37,322 nucleotides of DNA from an uncultured Flavobacteriaceae bacterium. GTDB lineage: Bacteria; Bacteroidota; Bacteroidia; Flavobacteriales; Flavobacteriaceae. The notes beneath the pieces were generated by a model. That model searched no databases, was not told the origin of the DNA, and saw only the letters and a list, made by a program, of their open reading frames with translations. The position numbers and the translations under genes are program-made. Shown one piece after another: positions 8,104 to 22,391 of the stretch; position 1 is the first letter of the stretch; the number at the start of each line of letters is the position of its first letter. The stretch lies in assembly GCA_905479745.1 (NCBI GenBank), contig CAJQNO010000009.1:1-37322 (forward strand). The letters are read 5' to 3'.

Positions 8104-8165
8104 GATGTCTATATTTTTATATTTAGAGGTTATTGCTAAGTTATTGATCAATAAAATGTTAGGGT

Positions 8166-8210
8166 TCAAAGAATACCCTTAGTAATCAAAAATGTATGAA
8201 TTCATGTAGG
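8166..8210 (-). promoter_or_regulatory. Conserved activator box plus promoter core, copy A
   Basis: On the minus strand, CCTACATGAATTCATA followed by CATTTT (8189-8210) is spaced 15 bases from TTCTTTGA (8166-8173). The same arrangement with the same spacing lies at 9066-9110. The 22-base box matches at 20 of 22 positions and TTCTTTGA at 8 of 8. The downstream part resembles the TTTG end of a Bacteroidota -7 element. The box would sit near -50 to -30, a usual place for an activator. It reads toward the gene starting at 8103. Confidence 0.65.
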
Positions 8211-8221
8211 TGAATTCCTTA

Positions 8222-8260
8222 GTTTGCGAACGACCCCCAAAAGGAAGCCGTTCGCCAAAC
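8222..8260 (-). other. Large RNA hairpin between the two secreted-protein genes
   Basis: GTTTGCGAACG (8222-8232) pairs with CGTTCGCCAAAC (8249-8260), giving 11 base pairs with one bulge and a 16-base loop. It lies just after the stop of the gene at 8269-8979. No T run follows on the minus strand, so it is not a classic terminator. It may protect the transcript's 3' end or be a Rho-dependent stop; the function is inferred. Confidence 0.5.
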
Positions 8261-8268
8261 AAGATTAT

Positions 8269-8979
8269 TTAATTGGCCGCCAGGGCATTCATGATGTAGT
8301 GCAGATTATTTCCCACGGAAACATTGCGAAGTTCAACCTTTAATTTACGGTTGGAATTTACCACGAAGATCTTTTTGTCCTGGTTCTTTTCGAACGTATA
8401 GCTGTGGTTGTTAAGCAAATTCCACGATGAACCGTTTTTCTCCCATACCCGAATGTTACCTCTCGCATTGCCATCGGTACGTCTTACAATAATGCGTGCC
8501 TTCCCGGTACATGAAGGGTTGGTGTAGATGGTCTTATTTGTCTGCCCCAGTAATCTTCCGGAAACTTTACTCCCGGTAGTGGTTACGTTATTACTGTTCC
8601 CTTGGATCTTGGCGTCATACTTAAAGGTATTCGCCACAGATTGATTAACGATCTTTACCTTGATCTGCTTTCCATTAACCCCGTTAAGAGTTCTGGTCTG
8701 CCATCCTGATGGGATATAGGTACCATTATCGTATTCGATAGGATTGGATTGCATTACATTGTTTACATAAACATTTACCTGAGTTTCAGCACGTCCTCCC
8801 GTTTTTTTGATACGGATAGTCACCTGGTCTGAGGTTGCAGTGGTTGTTAATGTTCCCGGGTTGGCAGAATACACAGTTCCGGATTTCGAGGTTAGCGTAC
8901 GACTACATGTTTGTGCGATAGTCGTAAATGGCATGGCACAAAGTGCCAGCACGGCGATTAGAATACTTACTTTTTTCAT
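8269..8979 (-). CDS. Secreted protein with two copies of a repeated ~90-residue domain
   Basis: This 236-residue protein has a signal peptide (about 1-22, ending MPFTTIAQ) and a Cys soon after. Two related domains follow. Domain 1 (about 25-125) has VTIRIKKTGGRAE and then RTLNGVNGKQIKVKIVNQSV followed by ANTFKYDAK. Domain 2 (about 133-236) has GRLLGQTNKTIYTNPS, ARIIVRRTDGNARG and KLKVELRNVSVGNNLHYIM. The neighbouring gene at 7552-8103 carries one more copy. The fold looks all-beta and no catalytic motif is visible. I do not recognise the family. It has its own upstream regulatory block (9066-9110) and a leader of about 86 bases, so it is not simply the tail of the TonB receptor operon ending at 9132. 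Confidence 0.8.
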   Translation of the reverse strand: MKKVSILIAVLALCAMPFTTIAQTCSRTLTSKSGTVYSANPGTLTTTATSDQVTIRIKKTGGRAETQVNVYVNNVMQSNPIEYDNGTYIPSGWQTRTLNGVNGKQIKVKIVNQSVANTFKYDAKIQGNSNNVTTTGSKVSGRLLGQTNKTIYTNPSCTGKARIIVRRTDGNARGNIRVWEKNGSSWNLLNNHSYTFEKNQDKKIFVVNSNRKLKVELRNVSVGNNLHYIMNALAAN

Positions 8980-9131: not shown

Positions 9132-11681
9132 TTAGAATAAAAGTTGTAGTGAAAAATTGGGAGAAAGCCCCAGAGAGGTTGTTCTAACTTCGTTTATAGT
9201 ACTCTCTCCATTTGTATTCTCTGTGATAACGTAGCGAATATTTAAGGTATTTCGGGTGTCCAGAACATTTAGTACTGCCAGATTGATCTTTGCATCAACA
9301 TTCTCGGAGATCTCCCAGTTGTATTCCGCCGAAAGATCTACGCGATAATAATCGGTGAGGCGTTCTGCATTTGGGTTACCATAAGCTATGGTTTCGTTTA
9401 TGCCATCGGTAATGATCGCATCTTCGGTTAAAGGGGTAGTATAGGGTTTACCCGAATGATAATTAATCCCCGACGCCACTTTCAGGCGATCGAAGATTAG
9501 AGATCCGGCAAAAGTTGCAGTATGAGTTACGTCTAGATTGTGCGGGAAAGAAGTTGGTTGAAATGAGTTGAATTCGTAAGTATTATTGAGATACGCATAA
9601 CTTAACCAGATGCTATAGTTTTTCTCCTCTTTGTTAACCACAAATTCTGCGCCATTAGCCAGGTAACTTCCGCTACTGCGTAAGTATTGAAATTGGTTTT
9701 GAAAACCCTGGTTACCGGAGGAAATACCTTCCACTTCCTTATAAAAGCCTTCGGCATTTAGCAGCCACCCGTTTTTCTCAAAAAGTAGCCCCAGGGATGC
9801 CTGTCTACTCGTTACAATGGGAATATTTTCTTCATCGGCCAATACCCATCTGCGTTTTTCTACACCAAGAAAATCACTATCAAAATCGATGCGCTGAGTG
9901 GTAGCCTGACTTTTAAATTCTCCCTGTGCCTCCAGGGATAATCCGCCCACCAATTTCTGATGAAGCGCAATTCGCGGTTCGATAAGGAGCTTGTCGAACT
10001 TGGTAAAATAATTAAATCGTACACCACCGTTCAGCGTAGTATTATTATTAGAGGTATAGGTGAGTCCGGCAAATGCCGCATGAGTACGAAGTACATTTTT
10101 CTTAAAATCGACAAATCGCGGTAAATTAACTTCCTGTTCGTTCGTTATACCCGTTTCTACAAACTGGTAACCTCCCGATGCCGAAATATTATCGGACAGC
10201 TCCAGATTACCATCCAATTTAATTCCCGTCTCGAGCACATCATTTTCTTGAAAAACTTCCTGTGTAGTTAACAAGTCACGGTTAAGGGCCCTTAAGTAAT
10301 AGGTTGTAAGATAGGTGAGAACTCTGGTGCTGAAGGTGTCACTCCAGGCTCGTTCCCAACTCAATCCCCCCAGGATACTCTTTAGATCCAATTCACTGTT
10401 TTTAGATCGCTCGGTGTCCAAAATGGTTTCATTAAAAGTAAGGGTGTTGTTCATTGCTAAAAAATTCACCCGGAATTTATCTTTGTCGTTCATATCCCAT
10501 AGAAACCTTGTACTTACATCGTAAAAGCTAAAATCTTCCTCTGCAGCGATCTTTAAACCGCTTTCTGCAGGATCGGTATTTGAGATTTCGGTATCCTGAA
10601 AAACTTTTTCAGAATAGGTTTGATAGACTGGCGATTCCCATAACGCATTAAACGAACTACGCCCCGAAACTTGTATCGCTGCTTTCTCCGATACAGGAAG
10701 ATATGCAAAGGCGCTTCCGTTGATAAGGTTGAGACCCGCCCCGCCGTGAAAGCCTTCACTTAATTGGTCCCGCGACTTCATGGCTATCACACTCGATATT
10801 CCATCACCGTAACGAATTGGTGTACCATTCTTGTGCACCTTCACGTCTTGGGTGATGTCTGGATTAAAAGCAGAGATCAACCCGAAGAAATGCCCGCTCT
10901 GGTAGGATTTAATATCATTCCAGAGGATAAGATTTTCGTCGTGAGTACCTCCTCGAACATTAATATTGGAAATGGTCTCATTCACACTTTGTATTCCGGG
11001 CAGGGCCTGAGTAACAAATAGGATGTCGTTTTCCACCTGTCCTGGCAGTAAACCAAATTCGGATGTATTTATTCCGAAGGATCCATCCATATTCTTAGAG
11101 AGACCTTTAACGAGGAAATTTTTTATAAACACGGTTTGTAGGGTGGAAACTTCGGCGGGAACTAGTATAGCTTCGCAATTTAAATTTAGATCGGATACCG
11201 CGATCTGCCAGGGCTGATAACCAACAAAACGGATAAGCAGTTCTTCATTCAGTAGTGCCTTCGGAATAAAAAAAGTTCCATCTTCATTCGATAGCGTTCC
11301 GAAGGAAGTAAGATTGGAAACGATAGTCGCATTTTCCAGGGGTAATCCTGTATCTGCTGCAAGGATTCTTCCGCAGAGAAATTCGGAAGTATTTTTTACA
11401 ACAGTAATATATCGATCATCAATTTTATTAAATGTAAAAGGGATATTCTTTGAGAGATAATTCAGGGAAGCCTCGAGGGAGGGTTGAGGTTCGTACAATA
11501 AGGTAACATTGGCAATATCATCCACAGCATACGAAAAACGTACATTGAATGCCTGCTCTATAGATTGCAAGACCACAAGTAGGTTTTTATTCCCACCTTC
11601 CTGCGCTCTGCAAAACACTGTGGAAAGAGAAAGACAAATAATTAAGACGATCGTCCGCCCTTGCACAGCGCTATTTCGCAT
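9132..11681 (-). CDS. FecA-type TonB-dependent receptor with STN domain (cassette 1)
   Basis: This 849-residue outer membrane receptor should import an unknown ligand and signal its presence to FecR. It has a signal peptide (about 1-27, ending FCRAQ). An STN signalling domain follows (about 28-97), then a carboxypeptidase-regulatory-like beta domain (about 103-165, with GTLSNEDGTFFIP and FVGYQPW). The plug (about 200-310) contains LPGIQSVNETISNINVRGG, GHFFGLISAFNP and a YGDGISS turn. A 22-strand-type barrel ends in Phe (SLQLLF), as expected for Bam-assembled proteins. The ATG overlaps the fecR stop by 11 bases, so the two are translationally coupled. No SusD partner follows. It is a clear paralogue of the receptor at 17682-20189. 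The substrate cannot be read from the sequence. Confidence 0.95.
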   Translation of the reverse strand: MRNSAVQGRTIVLIICLSLSTVFCRAQEGGNKNLLVVLQSIEQAFNVRFSYAVDDIANVTLLYEPQPSLEASLNYLSKNIPFTFNKIDDRYITVVKNTSEFLCGRILAADTGLPLENATIVSNLTSFGTLSNEDGTFFIPKALLNEELLIRFVGYQPWQIAVSDLNLNCEAILVPAEVSTLQTVFIKNFLVKGLSKNMDGSFGINTSEFGLLPGQVENDILFVTQALPGIQSVNETISNINVRGGTHDENLILWNDIKSYQSGHFFGLISAFNPDITQDVKVHKNGTPIRYGDGISSVIAMKSRDQLSEGFHGGAGLNLINGSAFAYLPVSEKAAIQVSGRSSFNALWESPVYQTYSEKVFQDTEISNTDPAESGLKIAAEEDFSFYDVSTRFLWDMNDKDKFRVNFLAMNNTLTFNETILDTERSKNSELDLKSILGGLSWERAWSDTFSTRVLTYLTTYYLRALNRDLLTTQEVFQENDVLETGIKLDGNLELSDNISASGGYQFVETGITNEQEVNLPRFVDFKKNVLRTHAAFAGLTYTSNNNTTLNGGVRFNYFTKFDKLLIEPRIALHQKLVGGLSLEAQGEFKSQATTQRIDFDSDFLGVEKRRWVLADEENIPIVTSRQASLGLLFEKNGWLLNAEGFYKEVEGISSGNQGFQNQFQYLRSSGSYLANGAEFVVNKEEKNYSIWLSYAYLNNTYEFNSFQPTSFPHNLDVTHTATFAGSLIFDRLKVASGINYHSGKPYTTPLTEDAIITDGINETIAYGNPNAERLTDYYRVDLSAEYNWEISENVDAKINLAVLNVLDTRNTLNIRYVITENTNGESTINEVRTTSLGLSPNFSLQLLF

Positions 11682-12570
11682 ATATGGTTACATCATTTCC
11701 ATCGACAGTGTAGCCCAATTGTAATGGATCGCATATCGACCGCAGGGCAGAGTTCAGATTTTCGTGAGTGAAACTACCGGTAAATCGTTTGTTGGCTATA
11801 CTGTGAGGTGAGGTTATAGTAATAGGATAATGAGATTTTAGTTCGTTCAGTACTGTTATCAACGAAGCATTTTCAAAGCTACTTTCGTTATAGATCCAGG
11901 CAGGCTCCTGTGTTGTGGTAGTGGTATAAACAACTAGTTTATTGTTTTCTACCTTCAGTTTATTGCCTGCTGGCAATTTTATTAGGGTATCGTTAAATGC
12001 AACGCTTACCAGTCCTTCAAAGCATTTCACATTAAAAATTGTGTCCCTGGAAAACACATTGAACTGCGTTCCCAGAACCGTAACATCTCCCTGAGGAGTT
12101 TCAACTGTAAATGCATTTCCCTTACTCACTTTAAAGTACGCTTCTCCTTCTAACTTTAATAAACGGTTATTTTTCCAATTTCTTTTCTTATAACTTATTT
12201 CTGAATTTGAATTCAGCTGAACAATAGAATTATCAGGTAATGTGAACGTCTCCTTTTGGGCAACATCGGTGGAAACCGTCGTGCTTAAGGAGGATATGAA
12301 CACATAACTTACTACAACCAATACCATGATGGCTGCGATCTTGAGTAACCGGTTGTAAGCAGGTTTAGCTTGTCCCGATAGTTTCTTCTCTCTTCTTGAT
12401 TGAATGGCGTCGAAATTGGCTAAAGCATTAAATTGTGGTGGTTCAAAACCACTACTTGCTTCTGCCAGTCTGAGGTAATCCGCGAATTCGGGATCGGACC
12501 TCAACTGGGCGATCTCATCGGGGGTTGCCTCTTTATTGAGGTATTTATGTAAAATGTAATGTTTGTCCAT
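11671..12570 (-). CDS. fecR: FecR-type anti-sigma factor with DUF4974 tail (cassette 1)
   Basis: This 299-residue protein should hold the neighbouring ECF sigma factor at the inner membrane and release it when the TonB receptor is occupied. The cytoplasmic N-terminus (about 1-73) is followed by a single membrane helix (about 75-95, KIAAIMVLVVVSYVFISSL). A periplasmic FecR domain comes next (about 105-200, FTLPDNSIVQLNSNS, GEAYFKV, TVLGTQFNV). The C-terminal DUF4974 region (about 228-299) has RFTGSFTHENLNSALRSIC and would contact the STN domain. The gene lies 51 bases after the sigma stop, and that gap holds its own GGTAGG promoter (12589-12619). It overlaps the receptor gene. Confidence 0.95.
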   Translation of the reverse strand: MDKHYILHKYLNKEATPDEIAQLRSDPEFADYLRLAEASSGFEPPQFNALANFDAIQSRREKKLSGQAKPAYNRLLKIAAIMVLVVVSYVFISSLSTTVSTDVAQKETFTLPDNSIVQLNSNSEISYKKRNWKNNRLLKLEGEAYFKVSKGNAFTVETPQGDVTVLGTQFNVFSRDTIFNVKCFEGLVSVAFNDTLIKLPAGNKLKVENNKLVVYTTTTTQEPAWIYNESSFENASLITVLNELKSHYPITITSPHSIANKRFTGSFTHENLNSALRSICDPLQLGYTVDGNDVTIYAK

Positions 12571-12588: not shown

Positions 12589-12619
12589 GTATAACAGTTC
12601 GAGCTGTTTTTACCCTACC
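12589..12619 (-). promoter_or_regulatory. ECF-sigma promoter in front of fecR, cassette 1
   Basis: On the minus strand GGTAGGGTAAAA (12608-12619) is separated by 10 bases from CTGTTATAC (12589-12597). The start of fecR is 18 bases further on. Three other sites in the window share this bipartite pattern and exact spacing. The upstream block begins only 2 bases beyond the sigma gene's stop codon (12622), so fecR and the receptor have a promoter separate from that of the sigma gene. Confidence 0.8.
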
Positions 12620-12621
12620 TG

Positions 12622-13137
12622 CTAAATATTTTTAAACTCTAATCGCAATTGCTTCAATGCCTGGCTCATACGTTTTTCAACAGCCTTTACACTTATATTA
12701 AGGTGTTCTGCGATCTCTGCATACTTCATTCCGTCTATACGGTTCAATAAAAAAGCGGTTCGTTGTGCTTCACTAAGATTGGAGATCGCATCCTGCAGTT
12801 TTTTATGATATTGCTTTTCTTCCAACACAAATTCGGGGGACTCATTATCTACTTTACTCGGAGTTAATTGAGCATGTTTCAATACCACCTTCTTATGTGC
12901 GATCTGGTTTAAGAAAGCATTGTTGGTAACTGTGAATAAAAAAGATTTTGCCTTTGCTAAAGCTACCTTGGCACAATTACTCCATAATTTTATGAAAGCA
13001 TCCTGTACCAGGTCATCCGCCTGTGCCTCATCGCCACATTTATAATATGCGAATCTCCATACAGACTGAGAAATATCATTGTACACCTGGTTAAATACCG
13101 CTTCATTGCAAACAGAATCAGGATCTTTCATAAACAC
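12622..13137 (-). CDS. ECF sigma-70 factor, FecI-like (cassette 1)
   Basis: This 171-residue protein carries sigma region 2 (about 15-85, with YYKCGDEAQADDLVQDAFIK) and sigma region 4 (about 110-168, with LNRIDGMKYAEIAEHLNISV). Region 3 is missing, as in ECF factors. It should direct RNA polymerase to the cassette promoters once FecR releases it. A second in-frame ATG six bases downstream (MKDPDS) is an equally possible start. The gene is divergent from the lipoprotein at 13234. Both flanks carry the GGTAGG bipartite promoter, the upstream one pointing away from it. Its own promoter looks like the housekeeping type (TATATTTG at 13154-13161). It is a close paralogue of the factor at 21142-21657. 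Confidence 0.95.
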   Translation of the reverse strand: MFMKDPDSVCNEAVFNQVYNDISQSVWRFAYYKCGDEAQADDLVQDAFIKLWSNCAKVALAKAKSFLFTVTNNAFLNQIAHKKVVLKHAQLTPSKVDNESPEFVLEEKQYHKKLQDAISNLSEAQRTAFLLNRIDGMKYAEIAEHLNISVKAVEKRMSQALKQLRLEFKNI

Positions 13138-13153
13138 ATTTCGAGGTTTGGAT

Positions 13154-13161
13154 CAAATATA
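13154..13161 (-). promoter_or_regulatory. Housekeeping-type -7 element of the cassette 1 sigma gene
   Basis: TATATTTG on the minus strand matches the Bacteroidota TAnnTTTG element exactly and lies 16 bases before the sigma ATG at 13137. No clear TTTG partner is seen at the usual upstream spacing, so the assignment is tentative. Confidence 0.4.
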
Positions 13162-13181
13162 TCAAATAATTTAGCATATGG

Positions 13182-13212
13182 GGTAGGGTAAAATCTAACT
13201 CTGCTGTTTTAC
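13182..13212 (+). promoter_or_regulatory. ECF-sigma promoter of the divergent repeat lipoprotein, cassette 1
   Basis: GGTAGGGTAAAA (13182-13193), 10 bases, then CTGTTTTAC (13204-13212), 21 bases before the ATG at 13234. The first block is identical over 12 bases to the one in front of fecR in the same cassette, and the spacing is the same. Confidence 0.8.
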
Positions 13213-13233
13213 TAGTAAATAATCCCAAAAAAA

Positions 13234-15018
13234 ATGCTACGAATGGAAAAGCTTACTAAACTACTTTTATTTACACTCCTCATATTTGGCGCGACCTTTA
13301 CCTCCTGCCAGAAGGAGGAAGAGATATTTATCGATGAAACCAACGAAGAAACGATCACGGCTAATTCGGTACTTGCAAATTTGCTTATCCGAACCTCTCA
13401 GAATTCGGGTAGTATAGATGATATAATAGATGGAAACAGTTGTGTGTCTGTAAAATTTCCGGTAACGGTGATCGCCAACGGACAGGAAGTGATCCTCACA
13501 GACGAGGACGACCTGGAAATCGTGGAGGCGATATTCAATCAGTTTCCTAACGACATAGATACCCTGGAGATCGTATTCCCAATTACGGTCATTCTCGATG
13601 ATTATACCGAAGTTGTTGTTAACAGCCAGGCCGAACTTGATGCTTTGATCGCCGCCTGTGAAAGCAGTGGTGGAGATGACTCCATAAGTTGTCTGGATTT
13701 CGAATACCCAATCACTTTCTTCATCTTCGATAATAACCAGCAACAAACCGGGACAGTAACGGTAAATAACGACCTGGAATTATACCTTTTCTTAAATAGC
13801 TTAGGCGACGATGACTTCTTCAGTATAGATTATCCAATCAATGTGATCCTTGATGATAACAGTGTGGTTACCGTTACCAACAATGCTCAACTACAACAGC
13901 TTATAGACGATTGTGAGAACAATAGTGGTAGTAATGATCCTATAGATCCCGTGGTGTTTGAACAAAACCTAACTAATGGGGTTTGGTATATTACCTATTT
14001 CTTTGACGATTTCGACGAAACTGATAATTACAACGGATACGAATTCAGCTTTGCTACAGATAATACAGCCCAGGCAACCAATGGCACCAATACAGTTCCC
14101 GGTACCTGGATGTTCGAGGGAGGAAGTACACCCGACCTGGTATTATTCTTCGGAACAAACTCACCTTTCGATGAATTGGACGACGACTGGGATATTATCG
14201 AAGCTACCAATGATATTATCAGGTTACGAGATGAAAGCGGTGACGGAAGTATAGATTATCTTACTTTCGAGAGAACTCCTCCTACAGGTGGAGGCGGTAA
14301 CACCAATGCACTTATCACCGAATTAACCACAGGTGTGTGGTACGTTAACTTACTGGATGACGATGGAAATATCGAAACCTGTGATTATGTGGATTACGTA
14401 TTCACCTATAACCTCAATGGTACAGCCACAGCGGTAAGCTCTTCTACAACCGTAAATGGTTTCTGGAGCGTGGAAGTTGATGATGGCGTGCTAAATCTTA
14501 TTCTAAATTTCGATATCACGGCAGATCCTAATTTCGACGACATTAATGACGACTGGGATGTCTCCAGCTTCAATTCGAACCTCATTAGCCTGCTTGATGT
14601 TAGCGGTGGCGGCGGTGGAACCGATATCCTCGAATTTGGAAGAAGTCCGGCCACAGGTTGTGGAGGCGGTGGAGGTACTGCCCAGGCCTTAATAGATACC
14701 CTTGAAGACGGGCAGTGGTTTGTAGCCGAGTACCTGGACGACGGGATCGATGAAACCATAGACTATAATGGCTATACCCTTACTTTCAATACAGGTGGAA
14801 CGGTAGTGGCGACAAACGGAACAAATACCTTCAATGGTAGTTGGGCAGTCACCGGTACAACCACCCTCGACCTTCTCCTGGATTTCGGAACCCAGTTCCC
14901 CTTCGACGAATTCAATGACGACTGGGATGTGCTAAACTTTACCAGCACATTGGTGGAACTTGAAGATGTAAGTGGCGGTGGCGGCGGAACAGATAACCTT
15001 ACATTTCAAAAATTATAA
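13234..15018 (+). CDS. Surface-type lipoprotein with two sets of tandem repeats (cassette 1)
   Basis: This 594-residue lipoprotein has its acylated Cys at residue 25 (TFTSC). QKEEE follows at once, close to the QK(D/E) surface-export signal known from Flavobacteriia, so it is probably exposed outside the cell. A second ATG at 13243 (MEKLTKLLLF) is a plausible start. Part A (about 60-235) has four repeats of roughly 45 residues with the pattern FPiTVi.dd...vvn...eLd.li, and Cys at the repeat boundaries. Part B has three lipocalin-like repeats of about 110 residues (about 243-352, 358-476, 483-594), each with G.W.v.y, gy.f.F..nG, DDWD and a D.SG...D.L.F ending, joined by poly-Gly linkers. It is divergent from the sigma gene and carries the cassette promoter. 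The ligand is unknown; a role with the TonB receptor is inferred. Confidence 0.85.
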   Translation: MLRMEKLTKLLLFTLLIFGATFTSCQKEEEIFIDETNEETITANSVLANLLIRTSQNSGSIDDIIDGNSCVSVKFPVTVIANGQEVILTDEDDLEIVEAIFNQFPNDIDTLEIVFPITVILDDYTEVVVNSQAELDALIAACESSGGDDSISCLDFEYPITFFIFDNNQQQTGTVTVNNDLELYLFLNSLGDDDFFSIDYPINVILDDNSVVTVTNNAQLQQLIDDCENNSGSNDPIDPVVFEQNLTNGVWYITYFFDDFDETDNYNGYEFSFATDNTAQATNGTNTVPGTWMFEGGSTPDLVLFFGTNSPFDELDDDWDIIEATNDIIRLRDESGDGSIDYLTFERTPPTGGGGNTNALITELTTGVWYVNLLDDDGNIETCDYVDYVFTYNLNGTATAVSSSTTVNGFWSVEVDDGVLNLILNFDITADPNFDDINDDWDVSSFNSNLISLLDVSGGGGGTDILEFGRSPATGCGGGGGTAQALIDTLEDGQWFVAEYLDDGIDETIDYNGYTLTFNTGGTVVATNGTNTFNGSWAVTGTTTLDLLLDFGTQFPFDEFNDDWDVLNFTSTLVELEDVSGGGGGTDNLTFQKL

Positions 15019-15041
15019 TTAATCCTCTTAAACTATATAAA

Positions 15042-15515
15042 ATGAAAAAGAAATTTTTAAATATCACAATGACGATCTTTTTTACAGTACTCCTGGTAGC
15101 ATGTTCAAAAGACGACTCTAACGATAGCTCGAATAACAGCAGTAGCGACCAGATCGCTCAGGCAAACCAGGTAGCTCAAAACGGCACCTGGAGGATCTCA
15201 TATTTCTGGGACACCGATAAAGATGAGACTTCCAACTTTACCGGTTATGAATTTAGTTTTAATAGTGATGGATCCCTGGTGGCGGTAAAAAACACAACAA
15301 CTGTAAATGGAACATGGTCTGTGACAAATAGTTCATCTTCCTCAAGCAGTAACGATGTAGATTTCAATATCTTTTTTTCGGTGCCCCAGGATAGTGATTT
15401 CGATGATCTAATAGATGATTGGGATATTATTTCTATCACCGATAACACGATAGAATTGACCGACGTAAGCGGAGGTAATGGTGGTACCGATTTCCTCACT
15501 TTCACTAAAATATAG
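15042..15515 (+). CDS. Small surface-type lipoprotein with one lipocalin-like repeat
   Basis: This 157-residue lipoprotein has its Cys at residue 21 (TVLLVAC) followed by SKDDSND, another likely surface-export signal. A Ser/Asn-rich linker leads into a single domain of about 110 residues (about 45-157). Its features are NGTWRISYFWDTDKDET, FTGYEFSFNSDGS, VNGTWSV, DDLIDDWDI and DVSGGNGGTDFLTFTKI. This is the same domain found three times at the end of the upstream gene. The gene begins 23 bases after that gene and is surely co-transcribed from the promoter at 13182-13212. The layout suggests that a repeat unit of the large protein duplicated into a stand-alone gene, or the reverse. No enzymatic motif is seen. 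Confidence 0.8.
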   Translation: MKKKFLNITMTIFFTVLLVACSKDDSNDSSNNSSSDQIAQANQVAQNGTWRISYFWDTDKDETSNFTGYEFSFNSDGSLVAVKNTTTVNGTWSVTNSSSSSSSNDVDFNIFFSVPQDSDFDDLIDDWDIISITDNTIELTDVSGGNGGTDFLTFTKI

Positions 15516-15711
15516 ATTGTTTGATTAGTTAGTGGAAAGGCCTTCAATTTAGGGATTTGGAATCAGTAGTGGATACTTTCTTGAATCGTTGTTCAAATTG
15601 ATTATGAAAAAGAAGAATCCCTCAACAGGAACGTAAAGATACCAGACGAGATCTATTTAGGAGGCCTTTATAAAAAATTTGCATGTCCTCCATTTTTTGC
15701 CCCACAAAAAG

Positions 15712-15743
15712 AAAGCCATCCGGGATATGGGATGGCTTTTATC
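15712..15743. terminator. Bidirectional terminator between cassettes 1 and 2
   Basis: AAAGCCATCC (15712-15721) pairs perfectly with GGATGGCTTT (15730-15739) around an 8-base loop, with T-rich DNA on both outer sides. It separates the plus-strand lipoprotein unit from the minus-strand unit ending at 15755. The 196 bases before it (15516-15711) hold no gene that I can support. Confidence 0.85.
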
Positions 15744-15754
15744 TTTGTAAGGAT

Positions 15755-16156
15755 TTATTGTTTTACTTTCTGAAGTAGCTCCTCCAACGCACTTCGTGCT
15801 TCCGAACGTTTTAATATCGCTTTTCGGCTTTTACCCTCTTCCGAAATAACTAGTACTGAAGTAAGCATTTCGCGTTTCATTTCATTTCCTTCCGAAGCTT
15901 TCATAATTTTTTCCGACAGGCTAAGAATAGTATTGAATTCATCTTTGGTAAGTTGTACTTCCGCAGGATCTCCTCCACTGTATACACCCGAAGAACTTTC
16001 TTCAGGAGTAACGGGACTGTAGATCAATGAAGTCCGGGTTATAGAATAATGATTGTTATTCTGATCGGAATATTGAATGCTCTTCACCGCCATAGATTTA
16101 CAGTTACACATAAGTATAGGAAGAAACATAAATGCCAGCAAATACTTTCGTCTCAT
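15755..16156 (-). CDS. Small hypothetical lipoprotein at the end of cassette 2
   Basis: This 133-residue protein has a hydrophobic leader ending in PILMCNCKS, so lipidation at one of the two Cys (17 or 19) is likely. The body has a short beta-prone part, then helical charged sequence (LTKDEFNTILSLSEKIMK, SEARSALEELLQKVKQ). No family is recognised. Its ATG overlaps the M28 peptidase stop by one base (TAATG), so translation is coupled and it is the last gene of the cassette 2 transcript. It may be an envelope partner of the peptidase, but that rests on position only. Confidence 0.7.
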   Translation of the reverse strand: MRRKYLLAFMFLPILMCNCKSMAVKSIQYSDQNNNHYSITRTSLIYSPVTPEESSSGVYSGGDPAEVQLTKDEFNTILSLSEKIMKASEGNEMKREMLTSVLVISEEGKSRKAILKRSEARSALEELLQKVKQ

Positions 16157-17634
16157 TAGTTTCCGTAAAGTGTTTTACCGGCGGCCTCATATTTATCTCC
16201 ACTTACCCAAACCGCGGTTTTTGTATCGTTGGCGATATTTCGGCCTGCCATCACATATGCCCTGAAAAATTTCAGTAAATAATCGTAATCTAAAGAGTCG
16301 GCATGGTCTCCGGGCTGATGATAATATTTTGTCACTTCCCCGTCAAAAGAGGTAAATCCCATCGAAAAGGTAGGTGCCGGAATTCCTTTGGCCGCGAAAT
16401 GAACATTGTCACTTCTGTCAAATAAACCCTGTTCGGGCGCAGGATCCTCTATAGCTTTTAAACCGAAATCGGCTGCCGCCATCTCTATATTCTTCTGTGC
16501 GGTTGTACGCTCCAGTCCCACAATGGTTGCCAGGGATGTATCGTTATAACCACCGTTATCACTATTAAAGCAATACACCATTTGTTTTAAAGGAAGCACT
16601 GGGTTTTCCACATAATATTTACTCCCAAGAAGGCCTTTTTCTTCCGCTGTAAAAAGAATGAATAGCGCAGATCGCTTTGTGGGGTATTTGGCAAGATTCT
16701 TCGCCATACTTAGAACCGTAGTCGTGCCAACTGCATTATCGCGGGCACCGTTATAGATGGTATCTCCTGTAGCATCCGGGCCACCAATACCTACGTGATC
16801 GTAATGAGCAGAATAGATCACATATTCGTTTTTAAGTTTGGGGTCTGTGCCTTCCACGACGCCAATTACATTTTGCGATATGATCTTACTCACAGGGCTT
16901 AATGACATATCTACTTTTACCGATGGATTAGGAGCTCCGTCAAGTTCGTTGGCCAGGCTACCTTTTTCATCCATCATCCAGATATAACCAAACCTGCCAT
17001 CTTCATTCGTTTTTTCACCGCTGGCCAGTTCGAGACGAGGCGAATTGACAAAATGATCAATTCTCCCCCAGGTTCTCTGGTCTGTGTCTACAAGTTCTAT
17101 TACACCCAGCGCTCCTGCGGCCTTCGCCAGTTGTTCTTTTTGCTGTGTTAAGCCAAATGCTGCCCGAACAGAAGGCGAATTAGCACTTCCCGACTTAACG
17201 ATCACAAACTTTTTGCGAAGGTCTTTACCCTCGAAATCAGATTCCATCCCATAGCCCAGATAGACCCCTTCCGTGGTCACTTCCAATTTGGCCGATTTCA
17301 TCGGCAACTTGTATTTATATTCTTTACCGTTTATAGTGAGATAGATAGGTTTAGGCGCTGGTTTTTTCTCCATAGGAACGGTTTGATAATAGGTGCCGGT
17401 CTTGGGATTTGGTTTCACCCCATAACTTCGCAGTGTATTAGCGAGGTAGGAAGCAGCGATCTTATTCTCTGGCGTTCCGGCCTCTCTACCTTTTAACAGG
17501 TCGTCTGCCAAAAAGTATATATGGCCTTCAATTTCGGCTTTCGATACTGTCTCTTTTACCTTATCTATTTCTGTTTGGGAGTAAGTTCCAACAGCACTTA
17601 GTGCCATTAAGAAACAAAGGAAAATTTTCTTCAT
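16156..17634 (-). CDS. Secreted M28-family zinc aminopeptidase
   Basis: This 492-residue protein has a signal peptide (about 1-19, ending VGTYSQ) and a peptidase M28 catalytic domain split by a PA-type insert (about 120-255). Expected two-zinc ligands are visible in order: SAHYDHVG near residue 278, GARDNAVG, the catalytic Glu pair in LFTAEEKGLLGS, an Asp in FNSDNGGY, and a late His in YYHQPGDHAD. It should trim amino-terminal residues from peptides in the periplasm or outside. The gene starts 47 bases after the TonB receptor stop, in the same direction, with no terminator between them. It therefore belongs to the cassette 2 operon. This hints that the receptor may take up peptides, but substrate evidence is lacking. 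Confidence 0.92.
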   Translation of the reverse strand: MKKIFLCFLMALSAVGTYSQTEIDKVKETVSKAEIEGHIYFLADDLLKGREAGTPENKIAASYLANTLRSYGVKPNPKTGTYYQTVPMEKKPAPKPIYLTINGKEYKYKLPMKSAKLEVTTEGVYLGYGMESDFEGKDLRKKFVIVKSGSANSPSVRAAFGLTQQKEQLAKAAGALGVIELVDTDQRTWGRIDHFVNSPRLELASGEKTNEDGRFGYIWMMDEKGSLANELDGAPNPSVKVDMSLSPVSKIISQNVIGVVEGTDPKLKNEYVIYSAHYDHVGIGGPDATGDTIYNGARDNAVGTTTVLSMAKNLAKYPTKRSALFILFTAEEKGLLGSKYYVENPVLPLKQMVYCFNSDNGGYNDTSLATIVGLERTTAQKNIEMAAADFGLKAIEDPAPEQGLFDRSDNVHFAAKGIPAPTFSMGFTSFDGEVTKYYHQPGDHADSLDYDYLLKFFRAYVMAGRNIANDTKTAVWVSGDKYEAAGKTLYGN

Positions 17635-17681
17635 TCTAAAGGGTTGCGTTTTTTTAATTCGGCTAAAGATACATATTTCAC

Positions 17682-20189
17682 TTAAAAGCGAATTCTGAAC
17701 GTGGCATTGGGGGTGAAGGCCAGGGAATTCTCTGTAACTTTTTCGTGCTCACCATCGTTATTGATACGGTAAAAACTGTTTAGTTCGTTTTTAGTGTCCA
17801 ATAAGTTCCAGAATGAAATTCCGGCAAAAGCATTCAATTTTTCTCCAATAGAGAAACTGTAAGTACCCGATATATCTACCCGAATGTAGTCGTCTATATT
17901 GGAGGCGTTGGGAAGATCGAAATTCAATTGTCCGTTCACAACCTGGTTACCAGGGACCAGGGTGGTGATTGGTTTTCCACTATGATAGTTGAAACCTCCC
18001 GATATATTAAATTTATCGAAGCTGTAATTGATCCCATAAGTGATGGTATGCCGAATGTCGATATTATTGGGAAATGACGAAGGAGTAAGCTGTTCGAAGG
18101 TGTAGTCGTTCTTTGCGTACGAATAACTAAACCATGTATTCACATTTCTAAGTCGTTTGTTTATAAGCAGATCCACTCCTTTAACCATATAACTACCATG
18201 AGTACGGGCATTCTCAAACTGATTCTGAAATCCCTGGCTCTGCGTGGTAATTCCTTCAATCCTCTTTATATAAGGTTCGGCATTTACCAACCAACCGTTT
18301 CTACTGTAGTTGATCCCCACAGAAAATTGCTGTCCTTTTAGAATTGGGATATCGTTTTCCCTTGATAATACCCACCGTCGGTTCTCTACCCCGAGAAAAT
18401 CGTTTTGAAGGTCGATGATCTGGGAGGTGGTCTGGCTCTTTAATTCACCGGCCACATCGATGGAAAAATAATTCAGGAAGCGGTAGTTTATACTTAATCT
18501 TGGTTCTAGCAATACTTGGTTAAATTTACCAATGTGGTTAAGCCTAAGACCAGCTATTATGGTGGTGTTCCAATTAGCTGGGCTGAGATTAGATTGTGCG
18601 AAAACACTATGAGTTCTCAATACCTGTTTATCGGTTCTTTCAAAGAACGGGTTATTAATCTGTTCGAAATTGGTAATACCCGTTTCATTGAATTGATATC
18701 CCACCATCAGCATCGCATTTTGTGAGATCACAAAATTTCCACTAGCCTTTAAACCACCCTCAAGTACATCGTTGTTTTGAAGTAATCGCTGGTTATTTCG
18801 AATATCGAAATTGGTCGCTCTCAAGCCGTAGGTGGTCCCGTATAATTGAATATTTGTGCTGAAATTGTTGTTCCATATACGACCGTAATAAAGTCCTCCC
18901 GAATAATTTTCCTGGGTTAGTTCGCTCTGCCTGGATTGGCGTACATTGTCGATCACTGCATTTTCAAGAAAATCCAGCCGATTTCCCAATAGCAGAAAAT
19001 TTACCCTCAGGTAATCCTTTTCGGTAGGTTTATATACAAATCGCAAATGCGCGTCGTAAAAAGTAAAATCGTCATTGGAAGCAGACTCCGCCTCCGAATT
19101 GACAAGAACTTCAGTATTCTGAAATGCTTTTTCAAAATACTCGGTGTAGGTTGGGGTTTCAATAAGATTATTGAAAGATTTTCGTCCGGCAAGTTGGAGA
19201 GAGGCTTTGTCACTTAATGGGATCTCCAGATAGGCATCTGTGCTTATCGCGTTTATACCCCATCCTCCGGAAATTTGAGACCCGATCGTATCGTCTCCCT
19301 GCATGCTTATGATCCCGGAAACGCCATCCCCATATTCGGCGCTACTACCATTTTTAATGATGTTCACCTCGGTAGTTAGGAACGGATTAAATGCCGAGAT
19401 AAGACCAAAAAAGTGCCCGCTCTGATACATTTTTATCCCGTCCCAGAGTACCAGATTCTGGTCGTTAGTTCCTCCGCGTATATTTATAAAGGAAACGGTT
19501 TCATTCACACTTTGAATTCCCGGCAAGGCCTGAATGGTCTGCAGCACGTCGGGTTCTATGAGTCCGGGAAGGATGTCAAATTCCTTGTAATTTACATTTA
19601 AGGCACCATTGGTGCTTTTAGTGATCCCTTTAGCCAGGTAGTTCACCAGGGTAACGGTGTTGAGATATTCGATCTTTCGCAACAACCTGAAGGTGGAACA
19701 ATCGTTCGTAGCTAGTTTGGCTGCTGTGGTTCTTATCGTTTCGAAGCCAGTGTATCTTATGGTAATTTCTTCGGAAGTGTTCGCGACCTCCAGATCGGCT
19801 CTACCCGCGCTATCTGTTATGAGCTGTTGGTATGGCGTGACAATTGCCACATTAACCATGGGTAGATCAATTTCAGAAGTAATAACAACACATCTGCGTA
19901 CTAATCCATCCTTTTTTTGAACGGCCACAGTGCGGTCCTCCAGGATGGTGAAATTAAATAAAGTACTTTTTGATAACGTCTGGACCGCTAGTTCAAGATC
20001 ATTTGCTTTGGGAACAGAAGTGTAGTGATATCTTAGATCGATATCCTTATAGCTGAATGTGCATTGGAAAGTTTGCTCCAGATATGTAAATACTTCCTGC
20101 AAAGACCTGGAATCGGTCTGATTTTGCCCGGACAAATAATTAAAACTGAATAAGATAAAAAGTACTGTAAACTTCCTTATTTGGGTCAC
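17682..20189 (-). CDS. FecA-type TonB-dependent receptor with STN domain (cassette 2)
   Basis: This 835-residue outer membrane receptor is paralogous to the one at 9132-11681. It has a signal peptide (about 1-22, ending NYLSGQ), an STN domain (about 25-93) and a carboxypeptidase-regulatory-like domain (about 97-160, with GRADLEVAN and YTGFET). The plug (about 190-300) has LPGIQSVNETVSFINIRGG, GHFFGLISAFNP and YGDGVSG. The barrel ends in Phe (TFRIRF). The start codon is GTG at 20189, overlapping the fecR TGA as GTGA. This start is preferred because the signal peptide begins right there. Plug motifs shared with cassette 1 but differing barrel loops suggest related systems with different ligands. 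Confidence 0.95.
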   Translation of the reverse strand: MTQIRKFTVLFILFSFNYLSGQNQTDSRSLQEVFTYLEQTFQCTFSYKDIDLRYHYTSVPKANDLELAVQTLSKSTLFNFTILEDRTVAVQKKDGLVRRCVVITSEIDLPMVNVAIVTPYQQLITDSAGRADLEVANTSEEITIRYTGFETIRTTAAKLATNDCSTFRLLRKIEYLNTVTLVNYLAKGITKSTNGALNVNYKEFDILPGLIEPDVLQTIQALPGIQSVNETVSFINIRGGTNDQNLVLWDGIKMYQSGHFFGLISAFNPFLTTEVNIIKNGSSAEYGDGVSGIISMQGDDTIGSQISGGWGINAISTDAYLEIPLSDKASLQLAGRKSFNNLIETPTYTEYFEKAFQNTEVLVNSEAESASNDDFTFYDAHLRFVYKPTEKDYLRVNFLLLGNRLDFLENAVIDNVRQSRQSELTQENYSGGLYYGRIWNNNFSTNIQLYGTTYGLRATNFDIRNNQRLLQNNDVLEGGLKASGNFVISQNAMLMVGYQFNETGITNFEQINNPFFERTDKQVLRTHSVFAQSNLSPANWNTTIIAGLRLNHIGKFNQVLLEPRLSINYRFLNYFSIDVAGELKSQTTSQIIDLQNDFLGVENRRWVLSRENDIPILKGQQFSVGINYSRNGWLVNAEPYIKRIEGITTQSQGFQNQFENARTHGSYMVKGVDLLINKRLRNVNTWFSYSYAKNDYTFEQLTPSSFPNNIDIRHTITYGINYSFDKFNISGGFNYHSGKPITTLVPGNQVVNGQLNFDLPNASNIDDYIRVDISGTYSFSIGEKLNAFAGISFWNLLDTKNELNSFYRINNDGEHEKVTENSLAFTPNATFRIRF

Positions 20190-21085
20190 TGTTGGTTAAT
20201 TTTAAGAACCACATTTTTACCATTAATAGAATAAGACAAGTTAAGGGGAATAGTAACGGCCTGCAAGGCAGTTTCGAGGTTTTCGTTATTGAAACTTCCG
20301 GTAAACAAAGTGTCGTTGTCTGTTCCTGCTCCCGAAATCACAATATCGAATTGCCGCTCCATTTCCTGAAGAACGAATCGATATGGTATACTCTTAAAAG
20401 TAGATTTCTGGTCAAGCCAGGCGGGTTTACTCGCTGAGGTAGTTTCATCCACAAACCGATCATCAAACACTTTAAAGACCTTTCCCGCCGAAAGATGTTG
20501 TTCTTTTCCCTGGTATATTACCTTCACTAATCCCTCGTAGCAGCTTACCTCGAAATAATCTTTTCGGTCGTTCACCTTGAATTGTGTTCCCAACACCGAA
20601 ACGCTACCCTGCGATGTATAAACGGTAAAAGTTTCGCCTTTTGCCACTTTAAAATAGGCTTCTCCATCTAGATTGAGCTGGCGTTCTTTCCCCCAGTTTT
20701 TTTGGTTGAATGAGACGGAGGATCCGGAATTTAGAACAACTTCAGAATTGTCGGGTAAAATAAATTGGGTGGTCTCACTGTTGGCCGCGAGATATTCCAC
20801 ATCCGATGAATTATTGAGAAAATAGAATAGTCCAAATGCGACAATTAGAGTAGCGGCAATACCGGAAACATAGTAGTTTGTCTTTCGGGAAGACCTCTTG
20901 GTTCCTAGTTTCTTCTTAAGACGATAAAAGCTCGTTTCCCGGTCGAAATCCGGTGCCTTGAAGTGTTTAGCAGCCCGGTCTATACGGTGATAGGAAGAGG
21001 AAACATCTAAGTTGTTAAATGTTTCCAGTTCCTCATCACTAAGGTTAAAGTTTAACCATTTAGAAATTAAATCCTTCTTTTTCAT
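20186..21085 (-). CDS. fecR: FecR-type anti-sigma factor with DUF4974 tail (cassette 2)
   Basis: This 299-residue protein is the same length as its cassette 1 paralogue. It has a cytoplasmic sigma-binding segment (about 1-70, very basic at 54-70) and one membrane helix (about 72-91, SGIAATLIVAFGLFYFL). The periplasmic FecR domain (about 100-195) has FILPDNSEVVLNSGSSVSF, GEAYFKVAKGETF and SVLGTQFKV. The DUF4974 tail has LFTGSFNNENLETALQAV. It should sequester the sigma factor at 21142-21657 and sense the STN domain of the receptor with which it overlaps by four bases. It lies 56 bases after the sigma stop, and its own GGTAGG promoter is in that gap (21101-21131). Confidence 0.95.
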   Translation of the reverse strand: MKKKDLISKWLNFNLSDEELETFNNLDVSSSYHRIDRAAKHFKAPDFDRETSFYRLKKKLGTKRSSRKTNYYVSGIAATLIVAFGLFYFLNNSSDVEYLAANSETTQFILPDNSEVVLNSGSSVSFNQKNWGKERQLNLDGEAYFKVAKGETFTVYTSQGSVSVLGTQFKVNDRKDYFEVSCYEGLVKVIYQGKEQHLSAGKVFKVFDDRFVDETTSASKPAWLDQKSTFKSIPYRFVLQEMERQFDIVISGAGTDNDTLFTGSFNNENLETALQAVTIPLNLSYSINGKNVVLKINQQ

Positions 21086-21100
21086 AGTTAATTTCTATTT

Positions 21101-21131
21101 ATATAACAATCGAACGTGTAAAATTCCTACC
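21101..21131 (-). promoter_or_regulatory. ECF-sigma promoter in front of fecR, cassette 2
   Basis: On the minus strand GGTAGGAATTTT (21120-21131) is separated by 10 bases from TTGTTATAT (21101-21109), 15 bases before the fecR start. The spacing matches the other three copies. The last six bases of the first block differ from cassette 1 but are identical to the other cassette 2 copy. Confidence 0.8.
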
Positions 21132-21141
21132 TCGATCTCAA

Positions 21142-21657
21142 TTAAATTCCATCAATCTCCTGCCTTAGTTTTTCCAGGGCGGTATAAATTCTTTTTTCAA
21201 CAGCCTTTCGCGAAATATTGAGCATTTCGGCAATCTCCTTATGACGTTTTCCTTCCACGCGATTCAGTAGAAATGCAACCCGTTGTCCTTCGGGTAATTT
21301 TGCCAGGGCTGCCTCATATTTTTCCAGATATTCTGTTTCCTCCATAATGAACTGAGGAGTTTCGTGGGTGTGCTCTTTTGGTTTTAATTTTTGGTGCTTT
21401 AAAACCACTTTTTTGTGTTTTATATCATTGAGCGTAATATTATTAATCACGGTAAATAGGAAGCTTTTCGCTTTATCGGGAGCCACACGCTTACAATTTT
21501 TCCAAAGTTTTATAAATGCCTCATGCACCTTATCTTCAGGGTCGAAATGCTCTCCATATTTGTAATAGATGAAGTCGTGAAGATCCTTCGAATATTGGTC
21601 ATACAATTTCGAAAAGAACTGCTCGTCGCAGACATTCTTGAAAAGAGGTGTGGGCAT
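21142..21657 (-). CDS. ECF sigma-70 factor, FecI-like (cassette 2)
   Basis: This 171-residue factor is the same length as its paralogue at 12622-13137. Region 2 (about 12-85) has YYKYGEHFDPEDKVHEAFIKLW, and region 4 (about 108-168) has LNRVEGKRHKEIAEMLNISRKAVEKR. The shared blocks KAKSFLFTV and HKKVVLKH support recent common ancestry. It should transcribe from the two GGTAGGAATTTT promoters beside it. It is divergent from the lipoprotein at 21741. Its own promoter region has TATATTTA (21672-21679), a near match to the housekeeping -7 element, so its basal expression need not depend on itself. Confidence 0.95.
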   Translation of the reverse strand: MPTPLFKNVCDEQFFSKLYDQYSKDLHDFIYYKYGEHFDPEDKVHEAFIKLWKNCKRVAPDKAKSFLFTVINNITLNDIKHKKVVLKHQKLKPKEHTHETPQFIMEETEYLEKYEAALAKLPEGQRVAFLLNRVEGKRHKEIAEMLNISRKAVEKRIYTALEKLRQEIDGI

Positions 21658-21671
21658 TGTGTGAATTTCAG

Positions 21672-21679
21672 TAAATATA
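21672..21679 (-). promoter_or_regulatory. Possible housekeeping -7 element of the cassette 2 sigma gene
   Basis: TATATTTA on the minus strand is one base away from TAnnTTTG and lies 14 bases before the sigma ATG. The surrounding DNA is very AT-rich, so a chance match is possible. Confidence 0.3.
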
Positions 21680-21693
21680 AAAATATAAAACGG

Positions 21694-21724
21694 GGTAGGA
21701 ATTTTTATACATTAGTTGTTATAT
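21694..21724 (+). promoter_or_regulatory. ECF-sigma promoter of the divergent lipoprotein, cassette 2
   Basis: GGTAGGAATTTT (21694-21705), 10 bases, then TTGTTATAT (21716-21724), 16 bases before the ATG at 21741. Both blocks are identical to those in front of fecR of the same cassette, while the ten bases between them differ. Confidence 0.8.
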
Positions 21725-21740: not shown

Positions 21741-22391
21741 ATGAAATACATTGTGTATTTTATGATGATAGTGATGATCGCTGGTTGTCAGAAAGAAGAG
21801 CTAACCATAGTAGAGGGAGAGGATGATGAAGCCTTTACCGATGATAGGCAGCTGAAATCCTTGCTCATGTCTGTGGTTTCCCACGACGGCTCCTTTGACG
21901 ATATCGTAGACAGCTCTTCCTGCTTTAGTATCGATTTTCCGTATACCTGTTACTACAAAGGATATCCATATCCGGTAAATTCTATTGATGATCTCGCGGT
22001 CTTTAAGAACGGGGATGAACTTATACCCAAGTTTCCTGTGAACATCACCTTTGCCGATTACCTCCAAGCCGAGGTTCCGGATGTAACTGCATTCAATCAA
22101 TTGATCGATCTATGTGCCAATGGCTCCCTATATAACGATATTATAAACTGTGTGGATATTATATATCCGGTTCGAATTTCGGTGTACGATCCGTCCAATT
22201 CGAGTTTCGAAACCATCATTTTCGAAAATGATAAACAGACTTTTCTTTCCATTGAAGATTTCGATGTAGATCGGATAGCAAGTATACAATACCCGATTCA
22301 GCTACGAATGCAAAATGAGGTTGTTCTCACAATCAATTCGAATGATGCTTTAAAGACAGAGATTTTAAGCATGATACCGTTTTGTGAGTAA
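21741..22391 (+). CDS. Surface-type lipoprotein of four short repeats (cassette 2)
   Basis: This 216-residue lipoprotein has Cys16 in MIAGC followed by QKEE, the same likely surface-export signal as the cassette 1 protein. It corresponds to part A of that protein only: a DGSFDDIVDSSSC linker, then four repeats (FSIDFPYTCYYKG, KFPVNITFADY, VDIIYPVRISVYD, ASIQYPIQLRMQN). The repeat-boundary Cys fall at the same places as in the paralogue (SSSC, DLC, INC, PFC). The lipocalin-like part B is absent. An AAAGGAGAAG stretch sits right before the ATG, an unusually good ribosome site for this phylum. It is driven by the cassette promoter and ends at a strong terminator. The function is unknown; partnership with the receptor is inferred. 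Confidence 0.85.
   Translation: MKYIVYFMMIVMIAGCQKEELTIVEGEDDEAFTDDRQLKSLLMSVVSHDGSFDDIVDSSSCFSIDFPYTCYYKGYPYPVNSIDDLAVFKNGDELIPKFPVNITFADYLQAEVPDVTAFNQLIDLCANGSLYNDIINCVDIIYPVRISVYDPSNSSFETIIFENDKQTFLSIEDFDVDRIASIQYPIQLRMQNEVVLTINSNDALKTEILSMIPFCE

Follow-up and report, generated by a model that had tools for sequence, protein, structure and literature searches.

Two matched pairs of promoter-like sites suggest two separate ECF sigma switches in a Flavobacteriaceae genome

Introduction

Do two neighbouring signalling cassettes of one bacterium form a single regulon, or is each a switch of its own? The question is raised by a 37,322-nucleotide stretch of DNA (the window) from an uncultured Flavobacteriaceae bacterium (GenBank assembly GCA_905479745.1, contig CAJQNO010000009.1). 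Two of its cassettes, each with genes for an extracytoplasmic function (ECF) sigma factor, a FecR-type anti-sigma factor, a TonB-dependent receptor and a divergent lipoprotein, carry four copies of a two-block, promoter-like sequence that the initial annotation assigned to a two-cassette regulon. From comparison with relatives, we propose that the four sites are very probably ECF sigma promoters, and we consider it likely that they make up two matched -35/-10-like pairs, each pair serving as the promoters of one self-contained switch run by its own ECF sigma factor.

Results

Four sites in two pairs

A pattern search recovered the four GGTAGG-N16-yTGTTwTAy sites of the initial annotation, which are also characterized by class match and covariation (see below):

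12589..12619, minus strand: cassette 1 promoter-like site before fecR1, GGTAGGG...CTGTTATAC
13182..13212, plus strand: cassette 1 promoter-like site before the divergent lipoprotein gene, GGTAGGG...CTGTTTTAC
21101..21131, minus strand: cassette 2 promoter-like site before fecR2, GGTAGGA...TTGTTATAT
21694..21724, plus strand: cassette 2 promoter-like site before lipoprotein 2, GGTAGGA...TTGTTATAT

The pattern had been said to occur nowhere else in the window and to be very unlikely by chance, and indeed the whole window holds exactly four copies, with 0.01 expected from 100 dinucleotide shuffles, none of which reached four. The distances to the ATG, put at 15-21 bases, measured 18, 21, 15 and 16 bases. 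The six bases after GGTAGG turned out to be pair-specific and not free: both cassette 1 sites read GTAAAA and both cassette 2 sites AATTTT. The second block is pair-specific as well (cTGTTwTAC in cassette 1 versus tTGTTATAT in cassette 2), so that both sites read GGTAGGGTAAAA-N10-CTGTTwTAC in cassette 1 and GGTAGGAATTTT-N10-TTGTTATAT in cassette 2. Because the block letters agree within and differ between cassettes, the four sites are two pairs and not one set, around a core, GGTAGG-N17-TGTT, that is identical in both.

A genome scan had been proposed as a check. Its exact part gave five exact sites (YTGTTnTA) against none for the reversed pattern, four of the five being the cassette sites; in its one-mismatch part, sites with exactly one mismatch were at background (13 versus 10 in the reversed control). 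The fifth exact site lies inside an opposite-strand gene. On these grounds a genome-wide regulon was rejected for the window's own genome, a verdict that applies to this genome and not to its relatives.

Anatomy of the cassettes

In each cassette, the sigma, fecR and receptor genes lie on one strand and the lipoprotein gene on the other:

9132..11681, minus strand: TonB-dependent receptor 1, FecR_C/STN-like N-terminal stretch (below cut-off), 11-base overlap with the fecR1 end
11671..12570, minus strand: fecR1, FecR-family anti-sigma factor (PF04773 6.6e-21, PF16344 2.2e-11)
12622..13131, minus strand: sigma1, ECF sigma factor of TIGR02985 type (Pfam, NCBIfam), ATG at 13131
13234..15018, plus strand: divergent lipoprotein 1, 594 amino acids, export-signal-like CQKEEE, four strand-strand-helix repeats of ~40 amino acids and three lipocalin-like domains (model)
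15042..15515, plus strand: small lipoprotein with one lipocalin-like repeat, 23 bases past lipoprotein 1, matching positions 224-344 of profile A1
17682..20189, minus strand: TonB-dependent receptor 2, FecR_C-like N-terminal stretch (below cut-off), 41% identical to receptor 1
20186..21085, minus strand: fecR2, FecR-family anti-sigma factor, 36% identical to fecR1 (PF04773 and PF16344 over cut-off)
21142..21657, minus strand: sigma2, ECF sigma factor, 52% identical to sigma1 (Pfam, alignment)
21741..22391, plus strand: divergent lipoprotein 2, 216 amino acids, the four-repeat domain alone, CQKEE after the lipobox (sequence, model)

One site of each pair lies between the sigma and fecR genes and the other before the lipoprotein gene; the receptor gene start overlaps the fecR end in each cassette. 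Both sigma proteins, of ~170 amino acids, have Sigma70_r2 and Sigma70_r4_2 over cut-off, with a Sigma70_r3 match in sigma1 below cut-off, and thus carry only the sigma2 and sigma4 domains, as ECF factors do. Against the curated TIGR02985 cut-off of 126.4, sigma1 scores 127.3 and sigma2 116.9, TIGR02985 being the best match of sigma2. PF04773 and PF16344 are over cut-off in both FecRs, which places a FecR-type anti-sigma factor beside each sigma gene, as FecIRA-type signalling requires. A putative Gly-Thr self-cleavage site reads LGTQF in both window FecRs and [VIL]GT.F in 109 of 134 FecRs.

The arrangement is conserved in relatives

The family was sampled with 149 genomes, each from a different genus and the window's own among them; 100 of these hold relatives of the cassette 2 lipoprotein. 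From 134 fetched regions of relatives, 140 lipoprotein open reading frames (ORFs) were parsed, window included; 138 lipoprotein matches were taken among the matches listed, with weak partial matches left out and two gene fragments of genome G080 merged. A divergent upstream sigma gene accompanies 138 of the 140 ORFs, 134 of them with fecR too, and a TonB receptor is present in 134/134 loci. The ORFs lacking sigma are L059, which starts 233 bases from the contig start, and L131; fecR is missing from L094, L140 and L161 (two ORFs).

A search of the 149 genomes gave 292 copies of the exact pattern and 30 of its reversed control. A further search, which let the spacer vary from 13 to 19 in 30 loci (29 from relatives, plus L014 of the window itself), gave 36 matches, of which 35 kept the window's spacing; 8 of the 30 loci had none. 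Both sites are present in 129 of the 138 cassettes; the other nine were left out of the covariation, and a small number of the sites that passed the threshold are weak or questionable (one each in L058 and L082 scores below 8 bits). The sites fall into four classes, GGTAGG/TGTT, TTCAGG/TGTT, TTTGGG/TGTT and GGTAGG/TGTC, and the class agrees between the two sites in 123 of 134 cassettes.

Upstream of the lipoprotein gene of L061 lie two promoter-like sites of different classes (TGTT and TGTC); the same genome holds a TGTC-class cassette, L060, and cross-input is possible.

Promoter letters covary with each other and with the sigma factor

Residues are numbered on sigma1 from the ATG at 13131; column 7 is the base after GGTAGG and column 23 the base before TGTT. 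The residue-letter sample covers 94 genomes of the family. For the 129 two-site cassettes, the lipoprotein site was compared column by column with the fecR site. Assessed by shuffling, their mutual information was high at columns 1-4, 7, 8, 23, 27 and 31 and at chance level at columns 13-22 (z -1.3 to 2.7). Under a phylogenetic null, in which columns evolve independently on the sigma tree, the observed level was reached by 0/1000 at columns 2, 3, 4, 7, 8, 23 and 27, by 2/1000 at column 1, by 8/1000 at column 31 and by 40-966 at spacer columns 9-22. If shared ancestry were the only cause, the spacer would be expected to show the same mark.

In alignments of the sigma factors, the strongest links of the -10 letters were with region 2, and those of columns 2-3 with region 4. 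The residue-column links 78-23, 156-7, 131/147/150/153-2 and 57-27 were reached by 0/1000 simulations, and those of the comparison residues 77, 86 and 145 with column 23 by 3-45/1000. Residue 78, in region 2, goes with column 23 (corrected score 0.50, next best residue 0.14): K78 with T (57/64 fecR sites, 62/64 lipoprotein sites), A78 with C (42/56 and 39/56) and R78 with G (5/5 and 5/5). Residue 156, in region 4, goes with column 7: Y156 with A (72/78 fecR sites, 68/78 lipoprotein sites) and S156 or H156 with G, all non-Y156 cassettes having G (51/51 and 51/51). Furthermore, columns 2-4 are mostly GTA with K153, mostly TCA with Y153 and TTG with H153, and column 27 is mostly C with D57 or E57. 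The covariation suggests a simple code that keeps sister switches apart, in which few residues appear to set the promoter letters: 78, 156, and additionally 147/150/153 for the first -35 half (GGTA versus TTCA or TTTG).

The window fits this code at all four sites, with the following residues placed by alignment:

12898..12900, minus strand: codon of A78 in sigma1
12664..12666, minus strand: codon of S156 in sigma1
21418..21420, minus strand: codon of Lys in sigma2 at the position of A78
21184..21186, minus strand: codon of Tyr in sigma2 at the position of S156

Outside the training set, every site read fits in L206 (K78, Y156; one site) and L210 (K78, H156; two sites), and L186 (A78) fits at position 78, the only one read there, with C at both sites. 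For the sigma-fecR-receptor set L220, which has V78 and a site-bearing gene upstream on the same strand, the code makes no prediction.

One regulon or two

These comparisons do not support a two-cassette regulon: the two pairs differ at the specificity letters as the sigmas differ at the matching residues (A78/S156 versus K/Y), and because of this parallel difference the cassettes are predicted to be insulated from each other. Among 29 genomes with two or more cassettes, sister cassettes shared a promoter key in 0 of 41 comparisons (39 distinct sigma pairs, since two comparisons repeat a pair owing to the two lipoprotein genes of L108); between genomes, the key was shared in 1615 of 8214. Judged by the box columns, the lipoprotein site resembled the fecR site of its own cassette more than that of the sister in 81 of 82 comparisons (81 to 1); in the spacer columns, the count was 39 to 29 with 14 ties. 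Of the 14 cassette 1 sites in seven genomes of the same genus, the window's own among them, 13 are exact, and 13/13 of these have G7 and C23; A78/S156 occurs in 7/7 genomes.

Several observations weigh against our reading or limit its reach. Sites of A78 sigmas also tolerate T at column 23 (13/56 fecR and 15/56 lipoprotein sites). Columns 9-12 covary weakly by shuffling (z 2.1-5.2), not beyond the phylogenetic null, and columns 7 and 8 score high with the region 2 residues 38, 73 and 28 as well; as several such residues score nearly as high, lineage effects remain for these two columns. The residue counts come from related cassettes, and independent pairs on well supported branches number three for 78/23 and one for 156/7, below significance; the opposite direction was almost never seen among the pairs listed, and simulations on the sigma tree were used because the independent-pair tests are too weak. 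One or both sites are missing at threshold from 9 of 138 cassettes, and the classes differ between the two sites in 11 of 134. The spacing count in the 138 cassettes is partly built in because the sites were picked by fixed-spacing models, a constraint from which the variable-spacer test is free. The FecR_C matches at the receptor N-termini (20.1 and 22.0 bits) fall under the curated cut-off of 24.4. Finally, the absence of key sharing would fit either selection against cross-talk or ancient divergence of the classes, and need not show continuing selection, because the classes may be ancient lineages.

An alternative is one shared regulon, in which both sigmas read all four sites and the letter differences are neutral. 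The common GGTAGG-N17-TGTT core speaks for it, and the tolerance of A78 sigmas for T before TGTT would permit some cross-reading. We nevertheless think it unlikely, given that the letters separating the cassettes are those tied to sigma residues, that no sister comparison shows a shared key, and that G7 and C23 are kept at all 13 exact cassette 1 sites of the genus. Considerably less probable still is a role as operators, bound by an activator or repressor protein in place of a sigma factor. A protein binding site could also consist of two blocks at fixed spacing, but here the blocks stand at -35/-10 places, 15-21 bases before the ATG in the window, and their letters covary with residues of the adjacent sigma, which lie in region 2 for the -10 and in region 4 for the first -35 columns. 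That the pairs resemble each other by chance or through a recent cassette duplication is hardly credible: the cassettes are paralogous (identity 52% for sigma, 41% for receptor, 36% for fecR, 29% for the lipoprotein N-part), but their spacers show no covariation beyond the phylogenetic null, and chance is opposed by the 0.01 sites expected and the 292 versus 30 counted in the 149 genomes.

Two matched pairs, each read by its own sigma factor, remain our preferred explanation. The -35/-10 reading of the sites for the adjacent ECF sigmas, as proposed in the initial annotation, is strongly supported by comparative evidence: in relatives, too, the sites stand before fecR and the divergent lipoprotein gene, their spacing is fixed, and their columns covary with the sigma factor, those of the -10 with region 2 and those of the -35 mainly with region 4.

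The sigma gene is predicted to lie outside its regulon

For the site classes searched, a motif pointing at the sigma gene was found in 0 of 138 cassettes, one towards the lipoprotein in 120 of 138, and the reversed control gave 0. Since sites precede fecR and none points at sigma, the anti-sigma factor and the receptor are predicted to be sigma dependent and the sigma gene not. The sequence TAnnTTTG, the housekeeping -7 box of Bacteroidetes (PMC7366714), occurs upstream of sigma in 52 of 138 cassettes, versus 8.35 in letter shuffles. The window has one candidate, by sequence reading, and no exact TAnnTTTG box upstream of sigma2:

13154..13161, minus strand: TATATTTG, possible housekeeping -7 box (TAnnTTTG) of the sigma1 gene

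The divergent lipoproteins

Structure models give four strand-strand-helix repeats in both lipoproteins, to which lipoprotein 1 adds three lipocalin-like domains. The small lipoprotein gene that follows has no site of its own and is probably cotranscribed with lipoprotein 1. In Pfam scans, lipoprotein 2 had no match, and the sole match of lipoprotein 1 above cut-off was META (24.4 bits against 24), located in a single C-terminal repeat; NCBIfam gave no match for either, and neither has a SusD Pfam match. Both window lipoproteins (CQKEEE and CQKEEL) carry C-X-K-(D/E)2 after the lipidated cysteine, the lipoprotein export signal (LES) for surface export in Bacteroidetes (PMC5080379). A lipobox was recognized in 106 of 138 cassette lipoproteins, with Q (84) or R (19) at +2 and E at +4 in 102; the strict C-X-K-(D/E)2 form is found in only 17 of the 106.

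A profile of the cassette 1 lipoprotein matched 26 of 198 genomes of the phylum, 10 of them outside the family in the same class; most of these ten matches were weak or fell in the lipocalin-like part. One strong relative (G195:C18:262097-263017, E 1.2e-66) belongs to another family of the same class.

A third locus and wider targets

The genome has a third sigma-fecR-receptor locus (L186, G000:C178, 1-5766), with a divergent SusD-like gene (SusD Pfam match) and sites that share a third paired motif, GAGGTA...AACTGTTCTA (read by eye). As a single-contig genome of the same genus has three such sigma genes within 23 kb, this locus probably adjoins the left end of the window. The lipoprotein may be the surface partner of the receptor, in the place taken at the third locus by the SusD-like protein.

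Of the first 40 exact sites outside parsed cassettes, among the matches listed, 25 have an ORF start within 130 bases and 15 do not; the genes that start there include a further cassette's fecR (L210) and a lipoprotein relative (L209). Nineteen of the 25 site-bearing genes were scanned, and six encode a type IX secretion system (T9SS) sorting domain, the six genomes holding 26-110 such genes each. Because exact sites precede T9SS-sorted genes, a small extended regulon may exist in some relatives; the window's genome shows none.

The exact GGTAGG-N17-TGTT sites before T9SS-sorted proteins are in L191, L195, L200, L202, L216 and L218. Look-alike targets recur across genera: LTD/CotH in L195 (and in L219 by eye), 'FGHSLIVHA' in L191 and L218, and 'KKSGQALLA' in L201 and L226.

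Neighbouring genes

Elsewhere in the window, positions 888-5359, judged by sequence reading, encode two neighbouring, mutually similar histidine-kinase-like proteins and a response-regulator-like one, and positions 7552-8979, beside the receptor gene of cassette 1, encode two adjoining small, apparently secreted, look-alike proteins.

Discussion

Judged from sequence, each cassette appears to be a separate four-gene circuit of sigma factor, FecR anti-sigma factor, TonB receptor and divergent lipoprotein, with its own pair of sites. In our working model, the ECF sigma drives two transcription units, the operon of fecR and receptor to one side and the gene of a probably surface-exposed lipoprotein to the other. 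FecR would hold the sigma factor until a ligand at the TonB receptor, and perhaps at the lipoprotein too, signals through the receptor N-terminal domain to FecR. The released sigma would then transcribe the lipoprotein, the receptor and more FecR, and the additional anti-sigma factor would reset the switch, with the sigma gene kept under another, probably housekeeping, promoter.

The components are those of FecI/FecR/FecA signalling: an ECF sigma, an anti-sigma factor with FecR and FecR_C domains, and a TonB receptor with a FecR_C/STN-like N-terminus (below cut-off). In the Fox system, the signalling domain of the receptor binds the C-terminus of the anti-sigma factor (PMC11637429). In E. coli, fecIR is transcribed by sigma70 under Fur control and is described as not autoregulated, and FecI drives the fecA promoter (PMC9249621). 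The cassettes likewise have a sigma gene without a sigma-dependent site of its own; they differ from E. coli Fec in that the site between sigma and fecR puts the anti-sigma factor inside the predicted regulon and in that a dedicated, divergently driven lipoprotein is added. Canonical ECF promoters have AAC in the -35 and CGT in the -10 (PMC8103513), in contrast to the GGTAGG or its variants (TTCAGG/TTTGGG) and the TGTT/TGTC used here. Canonical ECF circuits also feature positive autoregulation of the sigma factor, unlike the cassettes, in which no motif points at sigma; FecI-like systems are a known exception to ECF autoregulation (PMC8103513).

The residue-base links in the sigma2 and sigma4 domains derived by Todor et al. 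2020 (PNAS) from ECF/promoter pairs, for autoregulated ECFs (as described in PMC8103513), form a specificity code that ours resembles in linking residues to bases in both domains. Our set differs from theirs in having no site at the sigma gene, in its block letters, and in that each cassette offers two promoters that serve as controls for each other. Paralogous sigma-I factors of cellulolytic clostridia show limited cross-talk and differing promoter elements (PMC6056542). They are thus another case of sister sigmas with different promoter elements, although they are a different set of sigma factors and control cellulosome genes. We know of no FecR or TonB receptor in clostridial sigma-I systems.

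Prediction of ECF-controlled promoters in Bacteroidetes has been called challenging and in need of start-site data (PMC3878776), and according to PMC7366714 no motif was known for any ECF of B. thetaiotaomicron, although one was for EcfO of B. fragilis. The SigP motif of P. gingivalis (PMC4800418) is unlike the cassette motif. Our literature search found no paper joining GGTAGG, sigma factor and Bacteroid-. We regard the cassettes as FecIR-type surface signalling with a non-canonical promoter. Sus-like loci of Bacteroides similarly hold sigma, FecR-type anti-sigma factor and TonB receptor together, and the third locus has a divergent SusD-like gene; at the cassettes studied here, unlike in those loci, an unnamed lipoprotein stands in SusD's stead. 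BtuB-BtuG pairs a TonB receptor with a surface lipoprotein (PMC10404256). As in BtuB-BtuG and SusC-SusD, a TonB receptor would here partner a lipoprotein, although, unlike in SusC-SusD, the window lipoproteins have neither SusD nor NCBIfam matches.

More broadly, we find it somewhat more plausible than its opposite that Flavobacteriaceae carry self-contained surface-sensing circuits as orthogonal channels, in which two or three sigma residues write the promoter letters, paired promoters are rewritten together, sisters occupy different channels, and some genera recruit T9SS cargo and lipoprotein genes. As the two promoters of each cassette check each other, specificity letters become readable from sequence alone, and the code yields single-residue predictions. 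The finding would also provide naturally occurring sigma/promoter pairs that apparently do not cross, and it ties a widespread family of unnamed lipoproteins to both a TonB receptor and a sigma switch.

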